Shown here piece by piece: positions 4,616-62,190 of a stretch of 64,000 bases of DNA. The notes beneath the pieces are model-generated. The model made no database searches. It saw only the letters and a program-made list of their open reading frames with translations, and was not told where the DNA came from. The DNA is taken from contig OZ023262.1 in the NCBI GenBank assembly GCA_964006375.1, positions 56,506,366-56,570,365 on the forward strand, in the 5' to 3' direction. Each line of letters begins with the position of its first letter. The stretch's first letter is position 1. Position numbers and translations under genes: made by a program. This stretch comes from Tillus elongatus. Lineage: Eukaryota > Arthropoda > Insecta > Coleoptera > Cleridae.

Positions 4616-5932
<1,317 letters not shown>

Positions 5933-5944
5933 GCCACCTTGTTT

Positions 5945-5987
5945 GCCGTACTGACGAGCTCTAATTAGAGCGAAACCGGTCTACGGT
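5945..5987 (+). ncRNA. Type I hammerhead ribozyme, intact
   Basis: All parts of a hammerhead are present in order. Stem I 5' strand is GCCGTA (5945-5950). The catalytic box is CTGACGA (5951-5957). A perfect stem II hairpin GCTCTAATTAGAGC lies at 5958-5971. The second box is GAAA (5972-5975). Minimal stem III CCGG lies within the palindrome ACCGGT (5975-5980). The cleavable C is at 5981, and stem I 3' strand TACGGT is at 5982-5987. The cleavage triplet GTC is the canonical one. Every conserved core base is present, so self-cleavage, at least in dimeric transcripts given the tiny stem III, is expected. Confidence 0.85.
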
Positions 5988-6262
5988 TCTAATTGTGGTG
6001 AGAATGCATCTAGCCTTACATACTTTGTCCCTATATTAGGGTAGAAATGGGCCAGGGCTGACAATTTACTAAATTGTTAATTGGTTGTATACAGTCTCTA
6101 ATATTTAACACTTTATGTTATTTGGAGTTGCGTAACAACATACTACTTGGTTCCGCAACGAGGTGGCGGCACTTGCTTCGTGTCTTATATGTCACTTAGT
6201 GTTGGAAGGCTGGCTACCATAGCCGTATTACATTATAGGTGTATTTTCGCTGTAATTAGTAT

Positions 6263-6304
6263 ACCGTACTAACGAGCTCTAATTACAGCGAAACCGGTCT
6301 ACAG
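6263..6304 (+). ncRNA. Second hammerhead of K1, decayed core
   Basis: Same layout as 5945-5987, but the catalytic box reads CTAACGA (6269-6275), so the invariant G of CTGA is an A. Stem II has one mismatch (6276-6289). GAAA (6290-6293) and CCGGTC (6294-6299) are intact. It is expected to be inactive. Cleavage sites of the two ribozymes are 318 bp apart. Confidence 0.75.
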
Positions 6305-6340
6305 GTCTAATTATGGTGAGAATGCATCTAGCCTTAGGAT

Positions 6341-7570
6341 GCTTCTACTTCACAAATACTTATACTGAGCCTTGTTTGTACAGCTTCCATTTTTGCATAC
6401 TTTTTCCACTTCCGTTTTATTATTACAAGGCTAATGAAATTTTACTACTATAACACAGTTTGTGCGTTTCAAGTTATTGTTGCTTCCGAGAAACAAAAAT
6501 AAATCACACGGTGCAAAATCCGGCCATTATGGGGGTGTTAAAGGATGATATTAGTTACAGCTGTTATCCTCTTAGCACATTGTGGTAGAAGCATCGTTTG
6601 TCGTTTATGCACAGATGATTCCTTGTTTTTTCGATACTATAATGCACTTGTTGCGTTCAGATTTTTTTATTAATTATTTAGCCAACAATTTTTTGATGGA
6701 AACACATTCTTATGAAAATTCGGTACCATAACGCATTTGCTGCGACCGGATCTTTTATGATTTTATTGTTCATCAATTAGGCTATGCGTTCAGAACACAT
6801 TTTCGTTTGGAAACTTGTGAGAAACATTCACTTCAGCAACGGATTTCAAATGTAACGTTATATACGCAATTCCTGAGAAAATCCCAATTTACGAATAAGA
6901 GGACATTAAAAAGCTTTTTTCGCTTAGGGCTTATCATTAATTTACTAATAAATCTCATTTGAGATCGTAAATATGGTAATAAAACAAAAAAGAAGCTAAT
7001 TATGGCCGTGCCCTGGAAATTTGTTCCGATACTAAAGTCACTTGTTACGTTCTGCATTCTCTTTTTTTCTCTCTCGGGGAAGAATTCAGAAAATACTGTT
7101 ATCTTTTAGCTTGTGGTATATCAATACTGGGGCAGTGAAAGTGTGCAAGATCGGTAATGATATTCTTCGTACGAGATCCAATTCAGCGATACTCTTTCTG
7201 AATAAAAGATGTGCAAACCCATGCAGCATTGCGGTTTTGTCTGAAGTAAATTTATTTTCGCCATTTCAATAACAGTTTTAGTACCGTAATCTTCAATTTA
7301 CGTCTTCGTATTCACAATAAAGTTGATTTAACGTTGTGTGCAACACTACGGTGCAAATTTGTAATGTACAGACCGAAGTTAAGAATTATTAATAACAGGA
7401 TTCCATAAGTGAACATACTGCAAACATAACTTCACCATATTATCGAACCGATTCGGTGTTACAAGGTACACTCCGATAACTCTGGAAGTGCTTTTTTATA
7501 GAAAATCGTTGTAAAAAAATCAGCTAATGCAACAGAAATTTCCTGTAGCGTTGTGGAGTTGTATTGAAAA
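6341..7570. other. No gene; one family A terminal fragment
   Basis: Mostly unrecognised AT-rich sequence. At about 6705-6760 there is a minus-orientation family A terminal fragment (ATTCGGTACCATAACGCATT). Open frames of 74 and 76 codons near 6833-7272 show no recognisable motif. Confidence 0.4.

Positions 7571-7685: not shown

Positions 7686-7738
<53 letters not shown>
7571..7738 (-). repeat. Family A end module A4 with (TA)n
   Basis: The block GCGCGAACTAGGCCCCCTAG leads into CAGTTTCAATTTTTATATG and a (TA)n tract (7691-7738). The tract abuts the first recognisable codons of PLE1, so PLE1 appears to have joined or inserted at the (TA)n tract. Confidence 0.65.
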
Positions 7739-7739
<1 letters not shown>

Positions 7740-7759
7740 CAAAAATTTTCGACGAGCAG

Positions 7760-9313
7760 ATGAACGGCTTTAAACTAGGTGAGGGATACAGGCTGGTATC
7801 TCTGGATGTTGTCTCCTTATTCACAAACATCTCACTACAGCTTGCACTTCATATTATTGACGATAACTGGGAGCTCATTGAACCAAACACAAATATTCCC
7901 AAGGAGAACTTCATTCAAATAATAAAATTTCTTTTCAACTCAAATTACTTCCTGTCTAATGGGGTTTACTATTGACAGTCTTTTGGATGTCCAATGGGTA
8001 GTCACCTCAGCCCTGTGTTGACAAATATGGTCATGTCATCGTTGTTGAAGTTTGCAATACCACGTCTGTCTTTTGGATTGCCTTTTATCTACCAATACAT
8101 GGATGATTTGATAAATTTTTGATAGTTTTGATGATCACATTAAGTTTACTGTTGAGAGAGAGACAGATAGAAGTGTTCGCTTCCTTGATACTAGAGTATA
8201 TAGAAGTACCGACAATACCATCAATTTGGATTGGTATAGTAAGCCTTCCAGTTCTGGAAGATACATAAATTGTGCATCATATCATGATAAAAAAATGAAA
8301 TTGAATGTTATATTGGGTATGAAAACGCGGATTTTGGATACTGCCTACCCCTTTTTCCAGCATGGAGCTTTATGTCGTTTTGCAGATATGATGGTGAAGA
8401 ATGGCTATGAAAGAAGTTACACAAGAACCTCGGTGGTTCAGAGGTAAGAACGTGTGCCCCTGAACCGAAGGGTACTGGGTTCGATCCCGGGGTACTCCTT
8501 TCACTTTTTCAGTACAAACTGTAAAATTAACATCAACCGAGGTTCTGGCACTGTATATGAGCAAGTTGAATGTCTGCACGTTCCGCCCTTCGGAGGGGGC
8601 GTAAAGCCGTCGGTCCCGTGTCCATGCGATGTTGGGCACGTTTAATATCCCTACCCTCCTTACAGAAAGACAGGGGTTCGGCAAAATTTCCAGGATAGTG
8701 AGGTGAAACTGCTCCCTGGCGTTGTTGATTGGCCATAGTCGCGGAAATAAGCCGACTTTAAAGAAATAAAACACAAAGAAGTTACATGATGAAGTTGCTT
8801 TTCAACGTTCCATCTGAAAATGCACCTCACCGAGCAGCTACTAGGCCTCCCCCGCCTGTACAAGGTGAGAGGGATACCTCTGACCCAAGATTGAACGTCA
8901 AATATGCGGTGTTGCCTTACATCGGTGGACTAACGCACATACTGTTGAAACTATTCAAAGATTTTACAGACATCAAAGTGGCTAAATACAATATTCTGAC
9001 CAACAAGAACTTTTTTACTAACAACAATAAGGACAAAATTTTGGTGTATAAACAACGTGATGTGGTATACAAGTTGGAATGTAAAAATTATTCTCTTTCT
9101 TATATAGGTCAGACCTCACAGTCTGTTGGTAGGAGGATTAGCCAGCATAGGAGCGACTCCAGACTTAGACCTGATAGATGTGCATTGGCGCATCATGTGT
9201 CAACCTTGGGTCACAAGATGGATTTTGGAAATGTCAAAATATTGGATAGGGAAAACAATTTAAAAAACGTTCTCCTCCTGAAATGTGTCATATTCTTGAA
9301 AATGACACTATGA
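7760..9313 (+). pseudogene. PLE1 reverse transcriptase / GIY-YIG polyprotein relic
   Basis: RT motifs in order: SLDVVSLFTN (motif A region, near 7795-7825), then after a stop FGCPMGSHLSPVL (motif B) and YQYMDDL (catalytic DD, about 8090-8110), then a stop. The thumb region includes RFLDTRVYRS and LDWYSKPSSSGRY. After the SINE the frame resumes. It runs to a GIY-YIG domain with VYKLEC, then SYIGQTSQSVGRRISQH (about 9100-9150) and the downstream histidine-rich segment. The Y-I-G-Q-T and R residues typical of the nuclease are visible. At least two stops and the SINE make it non-functional. Confidence 0.8.
8422..8774 (+). mobile_element. tRNA-derived SINE S1
   Basis: Flanked by a perfect 12-bp target duplication AAAGAAGTTACA (8410-8421 and 8775-8786). 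The tRNA-related head has an A box TGGTTCAGAGG and a B box GGTTCGATCCC. A body with CATGCGATGTTGGGCACG follows, and the 3' end is TTAAAGAAATAAAACAC. The promoter boxes match RNA polymerase III consensus. Other copies are at 46713-47076, 53422-53757 and 31509-32960 (split). It interrupts the PLE1 coding frame. Confidence 0.9.
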
Positions 9314-12519: not shown

Positions 12520-13430
12520 TATTAAATTATATATGCAAGATTGAAAAATTTACTGAAAAAGTAAATCCTCAATTTGGTTCAATAAAATTTACCCACGAAA
12601 TAGAAATCAACAAAAAACTTCCTTTTCTAGATGTACCAGTTATTAAAAATAAAAATAATGACTCGCTTCAATTCTATGTCTACAGGAAGGAAACTGCCAC
12701 TATTAGTTATATTCCTAACGACTCATATCATACGTTTGCACAAAAAATGGCTAGTTCAAATTTCTTGGTAAACAGATTGATAAATTTTCCGTCCTGTAAA
12801 AGTAGATTTAATATAGAATTACAGTACATAAAAACGTGGCGAGATATAACGGTTATTCAGATGGTTTAGTGGAAAAATTGGTTAACAAATACAGAACAAA
12901 GAAAATGATATGTGAATGCACGACTTTTAAGAAAGATAAAAAAGAGGAAAAAAATTGTGTGTCTACCTTACGAACCACGTATTACAAAGGGTTTGGAAAA
13001 TATTTTTAAGAAAGCCGATTTACATTTGACTTTTTCGACGAAAAGTAATTTAAAATTTTTGTTGGGTAATACGAAAGACAAAGACAAAGCCACTGAAATG
13101 TCGGTTATTATGAGATAAGTTGCAAAGATTGTAATTTTAAATATGTGGGTCAAACTAAGAGAAACATAGCCACCAGATCTCTTGAACATCTCGCACATTT
13201 GCGATATGGTACGGTGGACAAATCATGTGTGGCACAACATGTATGGGATAATAATTACCACATTGACAAGGAAAATTTGAAACTTGTCAGAAATGTTAGA
13301 CATCAAACTATGCTTAATGCTTTTAAAAGCGTTTATATATCAAAGTCGATTAAGAACAAAACGTCATTGAATCGTGCGGCACCTTTAATTTCAAGCCCTT
13401 TATTTTCACTTTTCATTTGACCAGCTAAAC
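12520..13430 (+). pseudogene. PLE2 reverse transcriptase C-terminus and GIY-YIG relic
   Basis: The frame begins in the RT thumb (FGSIKFTHEIE, KKLPFLDVPV) and continues through FYVYRKETATISYIPNDSYH. After frame breaks near 12860 and 13113 a GIY-YIG domain follows with YEISCKDCNFKYVGQTKRNI and HLAHLRYG, then AQHVWDNNYHID. The catalytic RT motifs are missing, so this is a 5'-truncated copy. It is closely related to PLE3 at 51746-53010. Confidence 0.8.
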
Positions 13431-13789: not shown

Positions 13790-13990
13790 AAAAGTCGAAG
13801 ACGTAGCAAGTGCGTTATGGTAGTGAATTTGCATAAAAATGATCTGGCACAAAATATTTTATTATAACTTTTTTTTCTTGTAACATAGAAATCTAAATTT
13901 TGGTGTTTAGTTTACTTTTTATATCATAAACCTACCTACCAAATTTGGTTATCATAGAATTTTTATTTTTTAAGATAAAATTTTTTTTCA

Positions 13991-14829
<839 letters not shown>

Positions 14830-19429: not shown

Positions 19430-19535
19430 CTCATTCCGATAAAAAATGTGCTGATAGTCAATGTTTTGTTGGTTTGTAAACAAAAAATTCACTATCAGAA
19501 CATTTCTTATCGGATTGAGAGAAATGCGGTTTATT
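19430..19535. repeat. Internal hairpin of D-family mariner, copy D1
   Basis: CATTCCGATAAAAAATGTGC and, after about 25 bp, its complement near ACATTTCTTATCGGATTG form a hairpin of about 30-bp arms just upstream of the transposase start. It is also present in D2 (28477-28565) and D3 (49717-49805). Confidence 0.75.
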
Positions 19536-24369: not shown

Positions 24370-24738
24370 GGTAAATCACCTGCCAGTTTAGTAAATTGTC
24401 AGCCCTGACCGATTTCTTTCCTAATATACGGACAAAGTATGTAACGCTGTGGTGAGAATACATCTAGCCTTACATACTTTGTCCCTATATTGGTGAAGAA
24501 ATGGGCCAGTTCTGACAATTTACTAAATTGTTAGTTGGTTGTATACAGTCTTTACTTCTTAACTTTCGGTGCTATTTGGAGCTGCCGTGACAACATACTA
24601 CTTGGTTCCGCAATGAGATGGCGACACATGTAAAAACGGGTCTTACATCTCACTTAGTTTTGCGATGCTGGCTACCATAGCCGTATTACTTTATAGGTGT
24701 ATTTTCGCTGCAATTGGTATGCCGTACTGACGAGTTCT
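24370..24738 (+). mobile_element. Retrozyme-like repeat K2, truncated
   Basis: One unit homologous to 5985-6300 (shared CATCTAGCCTTACATACTTT and GCTGGCTACCATAGCCGTAT), ending in half a hammerhead: GCCGTA (24721-24726), CTGACGA (24727-24733) and the first strand of stem II, after which it breaks into LINE sequence. The first 65 bp or so (24380-24445) is an inverted partial copy of the same unit. Non-functional. Confidence 0.65.
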
Positions 24739-25555
24739 AACAACTCATCCGTATGGTATACAGCCGGGTCTAAACAAATCGAGGCACCAGGACTGCGAAT
24801 AGGAAGACATAACTTTAGACTGGCTAAGTCTGTAGGAAAAACTCCCACCATCTTTCAAGCAGAAATGCTTGCTAAAAATCTGTGTGCACAGGATTGCATA
24901 CAAAGAAGACTCATAAATAGATATATCTACATTCTCTCAGACAGCCGGGCAGTACTAAGGACTCTAAAGTCTTTCAAAACCGAGTCTAAACTGACACGAG
25001 ACTGCAAAAAGTACTTGAAGCAACTGGCTACGAACAACAAAGTACCTTTGATGTGGGTACCAGGGCATCAAGGCATTGAAGAAAATGAGGAAGTAGATAG
25101 CCTTGCAAAAAGGGCAGCAACAACACCATTCTATAGTCCACAGCCTTATTGTGAACTTGATACTTGGGAGAGAAACCAAATGCTGTCATACTGGAGGAAA
25201 ACACCAGGCTTAAGGCAGGCAAAACGGTTTATTACCATATCAACAGAAATGTCTGAACTGTTTTTTTAAGTTAAACAGGTACGACTTGATATTTATCACA
25301 GGACTTTTTACGTGACACTCCCTAGTGAGGTCTTACCTTATGAAGACAGACAGTGAAAACTGTAGATACTGCACTAAAGCAATAGAACACTTGCTATGCA
25401 ACTGTATGGCTCAGTTCTGCAAAAGGCTCAAATATCTTGGAGGAATGACCTTAACACCGCAGGAAATAGGTAAAATAGCACCTAAAAAGATAGTAGACTA
25501 TATGAAGAGTCTGCAAATTTTGGGCAAGTATCAGAAAAGATAAACATATACAAAG
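24739..25555 (+). pseudogene. LINE RNase H domain and C-terminal tail, relic
   Basis: RNase H of a non-LTR retrotransposon: YTAGSK (normally YTDGSK, so the first catalytic Asp is Ala), FQAEMLAKNLCAQ (Glu present), ILSDSRAVLRTL (Asp present), WVPGHQGIEENEEVDSLAK (His and last Asp present). After a frameshift near 25265 a C-terminal tail follows with CRYC and HLLCNCMA (zinc-knuckle-like) and PKKIVDYMKSLQIL. No RT lies immediately upstream; see 21376-21560. Confidence 0.85.
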
Positions 25556-26409: not shown

Positions 26410-26990
26410 TGTTAAAAAAGTCTGGACGCAGCAAGTGAGTTATGGTAGCGCATTTTCATAGAGCTTATCTACGCATTTTTTGCACGTTATATGTACGCAA
26501 AGAAAAATTAAAATTTGCTTGTAATCTAGTTTTGGAAACATTTAGATTTATAAACGCATAACATGATTTGAGACTAATTCAAATTTTCTTTTTGTTTCAA
26601 TTTCAATTACAGATAGGTGTATAATTTTAAGTTTATGTATTTTTCCAGCAAATGTTTGTAAAAATGTTATTGCGAAATTCACGTAAAAAAAGTATTTGCA
26701 AATTTTCATGTAAACATTTTGTTATTTCTGCCAAAAACCTTTCTGTGAATATTTATATCTTGGCTGGTGTAGTTTTTGTGTAAATTATTTCTGTCAAAAA
26801 CCTTTATGTGAATATTTATATCTTGGCTGGTGTAGTTTTTGTGTAAAATGCCTGAGTAGGTAAGTAGGTTCCTTGACCAGGAAAGTCAAACTAGTTTTTT
26901 TTGGGAAGTTCTTAATATTATGTTCTGGAAATCTTTGTACTTTTTCTAACCAATTTTTTTGATGAAATACGGTACAACATTGTGAGATGT
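26410..26990 (+). repeat. Family A terminal fragment with 58-bp duplication
   Basis: Terminal motif CTGGACGCAGCAAGTGAGTT at about 26419, AT-rich interior, and a tandem duplication of about 58 bp (26736-26793 and 26794-26850, each with TATCTTGGCTGGTGTAGTTT). It ends against retrozyme locus K3. Confidence 0.6.
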
Positions 26991-27500
26991 ACGCCAGGGT
27001 TGCCATCTCGGTGCGGAACCAGGTAGTATATTGTCACGACAGCTCCAAATAACACATAATGTTATAAAATAAAGACTGTGTACAACCAACTAACAATTTT
27101 CTAAATAGTCAGCCCTGACCCATTTCTCCCTAATATAGGGACAATGTATGTAAGGCTGGATGTATTCTCACCATAATTAGAACCCCAGACCGGTTTCGCT
27201 CTAATTAGAGCTCGTCAGTACGATATACTAATTGTAGCGAAAATACACCTATAATGTAATACAGCTAGGTAGCCAGCATCCTAGAACATTGTAAGCTCTA
27301 CGACAGGGTCGCCATCTCGGTGCGGAATCAGGTAGTATGTTGTCACGACAGCTCCAAATAACACAAACTGTTATAACATAGAGACTGTGTACAACCAGCT
27401 AACAAATTTATAAATTGGCAGCTCTGGCCCATTTCCTCCCTAGTATAGGGACAATGTATGTAAGGATAGATGTATTCTCACCATAATTAGAAACGCAATT
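26991..27500 (-). mobile_element. Retrozyme-like repeat K3, 310-bp tandem, minus strand
   Basis: One complete and one partial unit in tandem (CACCATAATTAGAA at 27179 and 27489, period 310), homologous to K1 in reverse orientation. A hammerhead with an intact core lies at the junction (27182-27226). The downstream unit is truncated near 26991. Non-coding. Confidence 0.7.
27182..27226 (-). ncRNA. Hammerhead ribozyme of K3, core intact
   Basis: Minus strand: CTGACGA (complement of 27212-27218), perfect stem II GCTCTAATTAGAGC (27198-27211), GAAA (27194-27197), CCGGTC (27188-27193). Stem I is weakened, as TGGGG replaces TACGG, so only an A-T and a G-T pair are left next to the core. Activity is uncertain because of stem I. 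Confidence 0.7.
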
Positions 27501-28207: not shown

Positions 28208-28940
28208 GGTGGCGCTTTGAAAACGTAAAAGACCGATTTGGGTCCAGAGAATTTTTTTTTAGAAACGCCTAAACACGTCAATTTTAATACTGAGGGGGAC
28301 ATGTTTTGACATAAAACTCAACTTTGGGTGGTTATAACAATCCTCATATTTTAAATAGGGAAGATGGGTAGAGTGTTACATCATTTGAAAGCTCTTTCTT
28401 TTCTGAATTCAGCACACAAGTTTTATCAACTCGTTTAAAAATTACTCACAGTTGAAGATGCAAAAACGCATTTCACTCATTCCGATAAGAAATGTGCTGA
28501 TAGTCAATGTTTTCTTGGTTTGTAAACAAAAAATGGACTATCAGAACATTTCTTATCGGAATGAGAGAAATGCGGTTTATTATTACAGTTTATTGGTCGG
28601 TTTGATACTTGATAGTACTACCGAAAATTCATTTTACAATGGTGTATTCTGTAGAAGAAAGAGTTCAAATAATTACTCTTTTTTTCAAAAACGATGACTG
28701 TGCCAACCGTACAGCAAATTTGTTTAATGAACGACATCCGAACAGACATGTTAACAGAAAATACATTTTGAAGTTAGTTGCAAAGTTTCGACAAAGTGGT
28801 TCAGTAGCCAACAAAAAACGGAATCGTGAATGTGAATTTCCGGTTAGAAATGAGACTACTGAGATTGAAGTTTTAGGACAAATTGCTGCAGACCCAACTT
28901 TGAGCACGAGAAAATTGGCCAATGATTCAAATATCTAAAG

Positions 28941-49716: not shown

Positions 49717-49805
49717 TCATTCCGATAAGAAATGTGCTGATAGTCAATGTTTTGTTGGTTTGTAAACAAAAAATTGACTATCAGAACATTTCTTATCGGA
49801 ATGAG
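49717..49805. repeat. Internal hairpin of D-family mariner, copy D3
   Basis: CATTCCGATAAGAAATGTGC and CTGATAGTCAAT pair with the complementary sequence after a loop of about 20 bp. It is almost perfect over 30 bp and sits just upstream of the transposase start at 49879. Confidence 0.8.
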
Positions 49806-54447: not shown

Positions 54448-55536
54448 TCAATGTAGTAAATGTTCAAAATGCTCGCCACGAACATCTTGGCAACATGCTA
54501 ATCTGGTATAGAAATGTCTTCTAACATTACTCAACATCTCAGGCGTGACTGATCTAATCGCAAGCGTGATTCGTCTTTTTAAGTCATCTAAGTTGAGGGG
54601 CTTAGTTTTGTATACAATACTTTTGACATATCCCCACAAAAAGTAGTCTAATAGCGACAGATCAGGAGATCGTGCTGGCCATTCTATCGATCCGCGCCTC
54701 CCTATCCACCGATTTGGAAAAATTTGGTTCAGGTACTGCCGGACATTGATTTGGTAATGGGGCGGTGCTCCATCTTGCTGAAACCATATTTTATTGGCAG
54801 GAACTTGTGGGTTTGCTGGATCTGGATATAAGTTTGTCAAAGTTGGCACGACATTATTTTGGAGCAGTTCTAAATATTTATCCCCATTCAAGTTGCCATC
54901 AATGAAAAAGGGACCTACGATATGATTTCCAACAATTCCTGCCCAAACATTAACTTTTTCAGGATATTGCGTATGTTCCTCTCTCATCCAATGAGGATTC
55001 TCATTAGACCAATAGCGGCAATTTTGACGATTAACATGACCGTGAAGTGTAAATGTGCTCTCATCAGAAAACAAAACATCTTCTAATTGGATCACATTGT
55101 TATCTAACATTGCCATCATTTGTTCACAAAAATACGTTCTCCTATCGAAATCGTCCTCCATGAGCTCCTGAGTTGGTATCATTTTATAGGGATGCATTTT
55201 ACTTTCCTTTAATGTTCGAAAAATTGCTGTGTGGCTAACGTTGAATAGTTGGGCTGCTTGTCGACCAGAAGTATGTGGGTTTTCTTGAAACTCAAGCGTA
55301 ATATCCAATTTCGTATCATCACTTACTGCATTGGCAGCTACTTTTTTTATCTGTCTCACATGACCAAGCTCGCGAAACTGCTTTTCTATTTTGCTAATTG
55401 TTCCTTGGGATACAGGCGGCAAATTTGGAAATTTTTCGTGAAATAAGCGAGACACTTCCATCTGTGTCCGTGTGTTATCTCCATAACCAATCATTTGTAG
55501 AATGGTTATTTTGTGCATTTCTGTTAAATGAACCAT
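54448..55536 (-). CDS. DD41D mariner-type transposase, intact
   Basis: 362 codons from ATG at 55536, the only start near the N-terminus, about 240 bp inside the right inverted repeat. Predicted role: cut-and-paste transposition of element E by binding its ends and cleaving with a DDE/D nuclease, in the nucleus. An N-terminal paired-like HTH region (about 1-115) includes ISKIEKQFRELGHV (48-60) and SGRQAAQLFNVSHTAIFRTL (90-109). Catalytic residues are Asp158 (FSDEST), Asp255 (FQQDGAPPH) and Asp297 (LLDYFLWG). There are 41 residues between the last two, hence DD41D (rosa-like). Leu295 replaces the usual Pro of SPDLxPLD. C-terminus FEHLLH. About 50-60% similar in layout to the D-family relics here. 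No frameshift or stop. Confidence 0.93.
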   Translation of the reverse strand: MVHLTEMHKITILQMIGYGDNTRTQMEVSRLFHEKFPNLPPVSQGTISKIEKQFRELGHVRQIKKVAANAVSDDTKLDITLEFQENPHTSGRQAAQLFNVSHTAIFRTLKESKMHPYKMIPTQELMEDDFDRRTYFCEQMMAMLDNNVIQLEDVLFSDESTFTLHGHVNRQNCRYWSNENPHWMREEHTQYPEKVNVWAGIVGNHIVGPFFIDGNLNGDKYLELLQNNVVPTLTNLYPDPANPQVPANKIWFQQDGAPPHYQINVRQYLNQIFPNRWIGRRGSIEWPARSPDLSLLDYFLWGYVKSIVYKTKPLNLDDLKRRITLAIRSVTPEMLSNVRRHFYTRLACCQDVRGEHFEHLLH

Positions 55537-55777
55537 TTTTCTGATATTATTACGTACAGTTAACGAAATTCAAACGACAATAGCACTGACACTAATCACT
55601 ACTGTCATGCAGGCAGACAACAAGTTGCTAAGGCTACGAGTTTTATACGAACAGAAAGAAAACTGTTTTTGTTTTTGTTTCATTTCATATCAGTAAAAAG
55701 AAACGCAGGAATGGTTTTTGTTTACTTTCTCATTATCAAGAGCTGAATGGGAAATAAGTATTGAATGCAATGTAGCG

Positions 55778-61927: not shown

Positions 61928-61978
61928 CCTTACGATCGTTTCGTTGACAATGTCAACATCTTCAGAGGAAGAAATTTC
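61928..61978 (-). ncRNA. Hammerhead-like fold, left arm of PLE palindrome
   Basis: Minus strand: CTGAAGA (complement of 61959-61965), one extra T, a perfect 6-bp stem II GTTGAC with GTCAAC and loop ATT, GAAA, palindromic stem III CGATCG, TA, stem I AGG with CCT, then an outer helix of GAAAT with ATTTC. Best formed of the PLE-type folds. Confidence 0.5.
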
Positions 61979-62127
61979 TAAACTAAAAAACTAGCTCCCG
62001 TGTATTTATATCGCGTCAAGGTAAACGAACTGGTCCGAAGTAAAAATTCTTGGACGACCATTTTACTTCGGACTAGTTCGTTTACCTTGACGCGATATAA
62101 ATACACGGGAGCTAGTTTTTTAGTTTA

Positions 62128-62190
62128 GAAATTTCTTCCTCTGAAGATGGTGACATTGTCAACGAAACGATCGTAAGGTCTCTGAAATAT
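62128..62190 (+). ncRNA. Hammerhead-like fold, right arm of PLE palindrome
   Basis: Plus-strand mirror of 61928-61978: CTGAAGA (62141-62147), T, stem II GGTGAC with GTCAAC (one mismatch), GAAA (62164-62167), CGATCG, TA, AGG. Confidence 0.45.

Follow-up and report, generated by a model that had tools for sequence, protein, structure and literature searches.

A hammerhead motif in a 318-bp repeated unit

The stretch of DNA analysed here (the window, 64 kb) carries a hammerhead ribozyme motif at 5945-5987, in one of three insertions of a dispersed family (Table 1). Between 5951 and 5981 the sequence reads CTGACGA, GCTCTAATTAGAGC, GAAA, CCGGT and C, with CCGTA preceding and TACGG coming after. 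The features of a type I hammerhead are in place: the CUGANGA and GAAA boxes are in order with stem II between them, and an NUH triplet (GUC) stands ahead of an open stem I (CCGTA/TACGG). An internal loop (TATG/TT) and the stem II loop AATT are both present as well. A type I descriptor, which demanded a minimum of 4 pairs each in stems I and II and of 3 in stem III, matched the 64-kb window once, with no match in 300 dinucleotide shuffles, and the hammerhead 34-mer at up to 3 mismatches was found at three places in the window and at none in 100 shuffles. Folding z-scores of the hammerhead stretch were -3.07 for copy 1, -2.52 for copy 2 and -5.35 for copy 3.

These results bear out an earlier note on this DNA, made from the letters alone, which had described both catalytic boxes, stem II, the palindromic ACCGGT and the GTC triplet; sequence and descriptor place each of them where the note had put it. 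The motif was also said to lie outside any coding element, and indeed no stop-to-stop open reading frame of at least 100 aa overlaps 5932-6336. The 5-6 bp given there for stem I are correct for this copy (5 pairs, 6 with a G.T pair), but in complete units the helix continues for 22 pairs past the internal loop. The tandem repeat reported in the same note is real in that a second copy follows 318 bp on; its core is broken, however, and the array is a partial insertion of a dispersed family rather than a simple satellite.

Table 1. Features of the hammerhead locus, the other insertions in the window and the second Penelope-like family (window positions unless a contig is named)
Feature	Position	Strand	Basis
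Catalytic box 1, CTGACGA	5951..5957	+	
Stem II hairpin GCTCTAATTAGAGC, 5 bp, AATT loop	5958..5971	+	
Catalytic box 2, GAAA	5972..5975	+	
Stem III palindrome ACCGGT, loopless, predicted to form best between two units	5975..5980	+	sequence; inference
Predicted cleavage C5981^T5982	5981..5982	+	by register
5'-truncated unit with intact hammerhead HHR1, 36 nt	5946..5981	+	
Full 318-bp unit, GC 0.40 (0.399), non-coding	5982..6299	+	
Outer helix I, 5' strand, 22 bp, pairs with 6307-6328 (unit 257-278 with 8-29)	6238..6259	+	
Second hammerhead core, broken: CTAACGA, C.C mismatch in stem II	6269..6299	+	
First 37 nt of next unit, ending at 3' site A (CTAGCCTTA)	6300..6336	+	
CCTTGTTTG, repeated at 6370-6378; possible but weak target duplication	5937..5945	+	
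Locus 2, inverted arm of head-to-head insertion	24384..24448	-	
Locus 2, forward arm, ending inside hammerhead box	24448..24740	+	
Locus 3, about 1.6 tandem units, boundaries approximate	26976..27499	-	
Second Penelope-like family	G000:C2:114550015-114556468; C1:14226588-14234630; C4:151260459-151263830		

Scoring with the Rfam covariance models, which had been proposed as a check, gave a divided answer. The best ribozyme match in the window was indeed to a hammerhead model, Hammerhead_HH9 (RF02275), at 5934-6003 (27.8 bits, E 0.0092), but this is below the gathering score of 52, and no model reached its gathering score in the window. The match is full-length, part of the outer stem being here flanking DNA. 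On the copy at locus 3 (27236-27166) the same model scored 24.7 bits (E 0.092). Among the sister loci described below, 20 of 88 were scanned at gathering score and yielded no match; a scan of six loci to E 1 gave 11 matches, and Hammerhead_HH9 accounts for 9 of these, at 24.4-30.4 bits. Presumably the curated models score this hammerhead so far below the cut-off because stem III is almost absent. Searches with exact core patterns found no places in the viral-contig and genome-contig collections.

The three insertions in the window

At the first locus, homology to the next unit begins at 5946 (5941 in an ungapped repeat), and the 5' strand of the outer helix I is missing from the truncated first copy. 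The pair of hammerheads thus consists of one intact and one broken core. The 9-mer CCTTGTTTG is weak as a target duplication: a 9-mer is common to 3.1% of random flank pairs, and the repeat does not abut the right end, where the abutting flanks have only 2 nt in common. The ends of locus 2 match neither of the two preferred sites, A and C, described below; its retrozyme leads straight into an RNase H frame at 24697-25269 (+) (PF00075, E 1.8e-10). Locus 3 has an intact core (27218-27188) with a weak inner stem I, and its 3' end is near site C (...CATCTCACAATGTT). No flank word of at least 8 nt is shared by the ends of the three insertions.

Within the unit at 5982-6299, the segments 6245-6259 and 6279-6293 form a 15-nt perfect inverted repeat that could mask the broken core by folding into another hairpin, and it is the stem II change that perfects the match, as quasi-palindrome correction would. 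We considered this upstream complement as a block of the ribozyme and rejected it, since it is perfect only in the broken copy 2, has two mismatches in locus 3 (counted by eye) and is better explained as a strand of the outer helix I.

Other repeats are present in the window. A 163-bp inverted repeat at 61972-62134 may be a small inverted-repeat transposon; Rfam scores either of its strands as a miRNA precursor, below gathering. An 84-bp hairpin, mir-944-like and also below gathering, occurs three times (19433-19516, 28479-28562 and 49719-49802), perhaps as one inverted-repeat family. At 13963-14678 there is a 141-bp tandem repeat in five copies with 92% matches, and at 54448-55569 (-) an uninterrupted 373-aa mariner-like transposase frame with 98% identity over 97% to a public protein.

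Predicted pairing between units and the cleavage register

Read from the sequence, ACCGGT can form at most one A-U pair within a monomer and six pairs in a dimer. With a palindrome of zero loop, stem III would form best between two units. In double hammerheads, each unit's core acts on the cleavage site of its partner, and the core is inactivated when the G of CTGA is changed. By this model, the intact core at 5951 would serve 6299/6300, and a cut at 5981/5982 would have to rely on copy 2 with its broken core, on a partner in trans or on the monomer's weak fold of one pair. RNA ends at 5981/5982 in tandem transcripts, which the earlier note had expected, are therefore probably not the best prediction for this locus.

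Size and composition of the family

The source genome (1.72 Gb, 30 contigs) contains 30,404 matches to the 31-nt core at up to 3 mismatches, 15,107 forward and 15,297 reverse, and the reversed control gave none. A 29-nt piece of the body was found at 13,351 places at up to 3 mismatches, again with none for the control. The mobile, retrozyme-like context that had been suggested for the motif is thus supported by a dispersed family of 30,404 core matches, and the element fits the metazoan non-LTR retrozyme kind as judged from its sequence. For closer study, 88 sister loci with 100 exact cores were fetched from the 30,404 places; this sample is biased, all of it being perfect-core and all from contig C1, between 1.1 and 52.1 Mb. 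Of the perfect cores listed for that contig, just 2 fall within its first 10.9 Mb and all others within the next 41 Mb.

In 77 unanchored copies, with segments of less than 76% identity dropped, the core diverges by 7.0% against 10.6% elsewhere, or 7.3-10% outside the variable positions 188-225. We do not take this small difference as selection on the core.

The hammerhead is confirmed as a real motif. The one observation on the side of a chance motif in AT-rich repeats is that Rfam gathering was reached neither in the window nor in 20 of the 88 loci; with 0 of 300 shuffles matching, 30,404 genome matches against 0 in the reversed control and the covariation in helix I given below, this reading is refuted by the shuffles and the genome counts.

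Covariation in helix I

In complete units, helix I comprises 5 pairs, a 4/2-nt internal loop and then 22 further pairs, the latter taken from folds of the window copies (unit 257-278 with 8-29). Across 141 rows from 83 loci, window included, the outer pairs hold in 92.7% of cells, against a mean of 91.1 and a maximum of 91.7 in shuffles, and 44 cells carry double changes, against a mean of 14.4 and a maximum of 24 in 300 shuffles. The inner helix has 17 double-change cells, where the shuffles have at most 8. Helix I thus shows some covariation, in rows that are related, so that the number of independent events is small. Stem II has no double change across the same 141 rows and 83 loci, as expected if cores were chosen perfect, which gives stem II no support either.

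Two preferred ends, A and C

The 3' ends of 110 of 149 terminal arms, and the 5' ends of 35 of 149, fall in three bands that cover 57 of the 318 positions and were drawn after the ends had been seen. When two reference units were used, 3' ends lay at 37-48 in 54 of 149 arms and at 217-228 in 36 of 149. These counts leave out arms below 60 bp, non-terminal arms and segments below 35-40 bp; the longest arms are 1,106 bp. We call the first place, 37-40 nt past the cleavage site, site A, and the second, at about 219, site C. As letters, and in the 46 rows printed for each site, A ends read ...GCATCTAGCCTTACA and C ends ...CATCTCACTTAGT, ...CCACTCACTTAGT or ...CACAATGTT, each then passing into differing DNA, most of them sharply. 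From their sequence, most insertions would thus start at one or other of these two sites.

A further candidate start, site B (185-198), proved to be mostly an artefact of a deletion variant aligned to one reference; it shrinks with the second reference and the site C motif is found at the end of most of its rows, so it was merged into C. A pattern search for a C-site variant found no places. Nor do the flanks point to more than a slight preference for AT-rich targets: at 10-40 nt outside A ends they are 65-67% AT, the mean of the loci being 64%, and the corresponding figures are 71-73% outside C ends and 50-67% outside the ends called as B. AC-rich starts of the anole PLE type were likewise rejected, as the end words at A and C, with 9/15, 7/13 and 8/13 adenine plus cytosine against 44% in the unit, depart too little.

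Head-to-head pairs and target duplications

The 91 loci (88 fetched plus the window's three) hold 99 insertions, of which 50 are head to head, 2 are same-strand pairs and 47 are single arms; insertions below 80 bp or less than 60 bp from the fetched edge were dropped. No arms were tail to tail among the 99. Both outer ends could be called in 25 of the 50 head-to-head insertions, and all 25 have one A and one C end, whereas 20,000 label shuffles gave a mean of 12.8 and a maximum of 21, none reaching 25. In the other 25 at least one end lies outside the A and C bands. Since the loci were chosen for a hammerhead just upstream of A, A-A pairs should be over-represented if anything; yet none was seen. 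The 49 insertions with a single 3' end have it at A in 29 cases, at C in 12 and elsewhere in 8.

Among the 25 A+C insertions, 10 have flank words of 8-13 nt in common between their two sides, where 100 shuffles gave 0.31 on average and at most 2; the other 15 have no shared 8-nt word. The remaining classes (2/29, 1/12 and 1/33) are not above their null maxima. In the full set of 99 insertions, 16 share at least 8 nt, in one case a TA run, against 1.2 with a maximum of 5 in 200 shuffles. Judged by these ends and flanks, complete insertions seem to be of the A+C kind, and most of the others are probably truncated, decayed or mis-ended.

Whether the repeated units of an insertion have a common source can be read from 17 two-allele sites. 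At these, with segments below 78% identity dropped, tandem laps agree in 497 of 573 comparisons (86.7%) and the two arms of head-to-head pairs in 577 of 674, compared with 59.5% between different loci (expected 58.5%). Segments elsewhere in the same 3 kb agree in 127 of 180, above different loci, which may reflect insertions split by mapping. The shared alleles indicate that the repeated units of one insertion mostly come from one RNA sequence. This test was used because the comparison of whole identity (0.883 against 0.854, in favour of laps) is confounded by alignment quality, as in L046, whose rows are at 61%. A circle would explain the laps most simply; a uniform multimer would give the same concordance.

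Penelope-like elements in the same genome

The genome holds at least two families of Penelope-like elements (PLEs). One is present in the window at 7736-9313 (+), with a GIY-YIG match (E 5.4e-7); its part at 7736-7972, where Pfam has no match, we take to be a Penelope reverse transcriptase from its RT motif. Nine loci of this family were compared (L089, the window copy, to L097). Several of them (L090-L097) are head to head, and all 12 arm ends printed have a long (TA)n in their last 60 nt, the right end of L096 and the left end of L091 finishing with a few other letters. Some of the (TA)n arrays of the window may accordingly be PLE ends. None of the nine loci has significant similarity to the 318-bp unit (best E 0.072) or a hammerhead, and with copies ending in (TA)n, the family of the window was rejected as the helper. 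Copies of the second family stand in tandems of 3,078-3,080 bp and in head-to-head tandems, with open frames that reach about 790 aa. A helper enzyme of PLE type is what we infer from the anatomy of the insertions by analogy with published systems.

A model for the insertions

We favour, at a probability of roughly 0.6, the reading that this is a non-coding, non-autonomous 318-nt retrozyme with a dimer-type type I hammerhead, copied from sites A and C by Penelope-type machinery. The motif, the unit, its copy number, the two starts, the A+C rule at callable ends, the duplications and the single-RNA origin can be read from the genome sequence at the strength given above. Cleavage, circles, the reaction on two strands and the identity of the enzyme would be supplied by the model, as follows. 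Transcripts of tandem units would be cut by hammerheads paired through ACCGGT, and the cut monomers, if the published retrozymes are a guide, would be closed into circles. A reverse transcriptase with an endonuclease, most likely of Penelope type, would cut both target strands; priming by one target 3' end would start the RNA copy at site A, and priming by the other would start it at site C. Copying would often exceed one lap, and the two copies would be joined head to head, leaving a short target duplication. Since the arms extend from A back over the cleavage site, the template should have been continuous there, either cut and re-closed or never cut. In its strictest form, in which two reverse transcriptases working on a single RNA circle produce every insertion, one strand always priming at A and the other always at C, both running round until joined, the model is tentative and falls a little short of even odds.

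Several published observations bear on these steps. In vitro, a purified PLE protein from anole can extend both strands, with internal starts at preferred sites, and in the same system ribozyme mutants are without effect on insertion (PMC11167929). In rotifer PLEs the pLTRs are inverted head to head, one of them may bear a 31-bp tail, and duplications of 8-10 bp occur (PMC3846280). Coral, mussel and axolotl contain abundant circles of retrozyme RNA, and PLEs are named only as a strong candidate for moving animal retrozymes (PMC7229834). Minimal type I hammerheads sit in the pLTRs of PLEs (PMC7761336).

The alternative nearest to our model, and one that overlaps with it, is a template consisting of an uncut multimeric transcript of a genomic tandem, in which no circle exists and the ribozyme is not needed for insertion. 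Uncut RNA would equally allow arms of up to 1,106 bp that run through the cleavage site. A decayed genomic array, however, would be expected to yield differing units, whereas the laps agree at 86.7% against 59.5% between loci, as expected of one circle copied round, and circles are abundant in the coral, mussel and axolotl retrozymes (PMC7229834). We therefore regard the uncut multimer as unlikely, though it is the most serious of the rivals.

Two further readings we consider improbable, to about the same degree. L1 twin priming leaves arms placed head to head, in which one 3' end is fixed and the inner ends vary. This is the geometry observed here, so that site A could be the 3' end of the RNA and the inverted arm an ordinary 5' inversion of a LINE; an RNA ending at A is compatible with the data, frames that we presume from their motifs to be LINE-like are common in the window, and RNase H was found. 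Such priming predicts a variable outer end for the inverted arm, yet the other fixed site is found there in 25 of 25 called pairs, and in the 46 rows printed, of 64, site A is never followed by poly-A, though two enter TA repeats. The unit could instead be a degraded pseudo-LTR of an autonomous Penelope-like element and no independent retrozyme. The minimal hammerheads reported for pLTRs (PMC7761336) agree with this, as do the PLE relics 1.4 kb downstream (7736-9313; GIY-YIG 8762-9310), the second family with its 3,078-3,080 bp tandems and frames to about 790 aa, and a PLE-like frame within 3 kb at 7 of the 88 loci. In a tblastn search with six query pieces (cut-off 1e-5) the other 81 have no such frame, many insertions consist of nothing but laps of the unit, and the nine PLE loci have neither significant similarity to it nor a hammerhead. 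The retrozyme copied from A and C thus remains the reading we prefer; the element may work like a PLE and is not one, having no RT or GIY-YIG frame in the unit.

Relation to known retrozymes and Penelope-like elements

Retrozymes are characterised by tandem units of 170-400 nt with GC below 45% (here 318 bp and 0.399), by being non-coding, dispersed and present in many copies (here 30,404 places) and, where present, by target duplications of more than 4 bp (here 8-13 nt in 10 of 25 A+C insertions). Of the metazoan non-LTR retrozymes, as far as the available text of PMC7229834 describes them, the axolotl and newt type is above all the closest: the ORF-less 318-nt unit of GC 0.40 in tandem laps, the type I hammerhead with almost no stem III and the tens of thousands of copies are all shared. 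In contrast to the published retrozymes, likened here by their description, stem III is a 6-nt palindrome without a separate loop and helix I has an outer part of 22 bp; many head-to-head insertions with two preferred starts also set the family apart from the retrozymes as described in that excerpt.

A 2014 paper reportedly dealt with the hammerheads of PLEs, and a 2017 paper is said to have treated dimeric ones. With the PLEs (anole PAc, PMC11167929; rotifer Penelope, PMC3846280), as portrayed in these papers, the family shares head-to-head arms, preferred internal starts and partial tandems. Short duplications are alike too, but are seen in only 10 of 25 A+C insertions, and the hammerhead lies near the start site as in anole. 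Unlike PLEs, the unit lacks an RT or GIY-YIG frame, and its length is roughly a tenth of theirs. A distance of about 180 nt separates the two starts, against 30-40 nt for the PLE tail, and one of each is used wherever both ends could be called.

The retrozyme kind is itself known, and what is new is the anatomy of the insertions, with two starts and a one-of-each rule. In the literature searched, as far as its accessible text goes, we found no description of such a rule, and no paper that combined 'retrozyme' with 'head-to-head'. As the family lies below Rfam gathering in the 21 sources tried (the window and 20 loci), dimer-type hammerheads may be undercounted.

The wider question is how animal retrozymes re-enter DNA, a step recorded here in about thirty thousand core matches of a single genome. 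The two starts, the one-of-each rule and the shared alleles are specific, countable predictions for a two-strand mechanism of Penelope type, acting on a template that is circular or multimeric, and they can be checked in any retrozyme genome. If true, the obligate A+C pair would be the retrozyme counterpart of Penelope's optional tail, and it would answer which machinery moves animal retrozymes.
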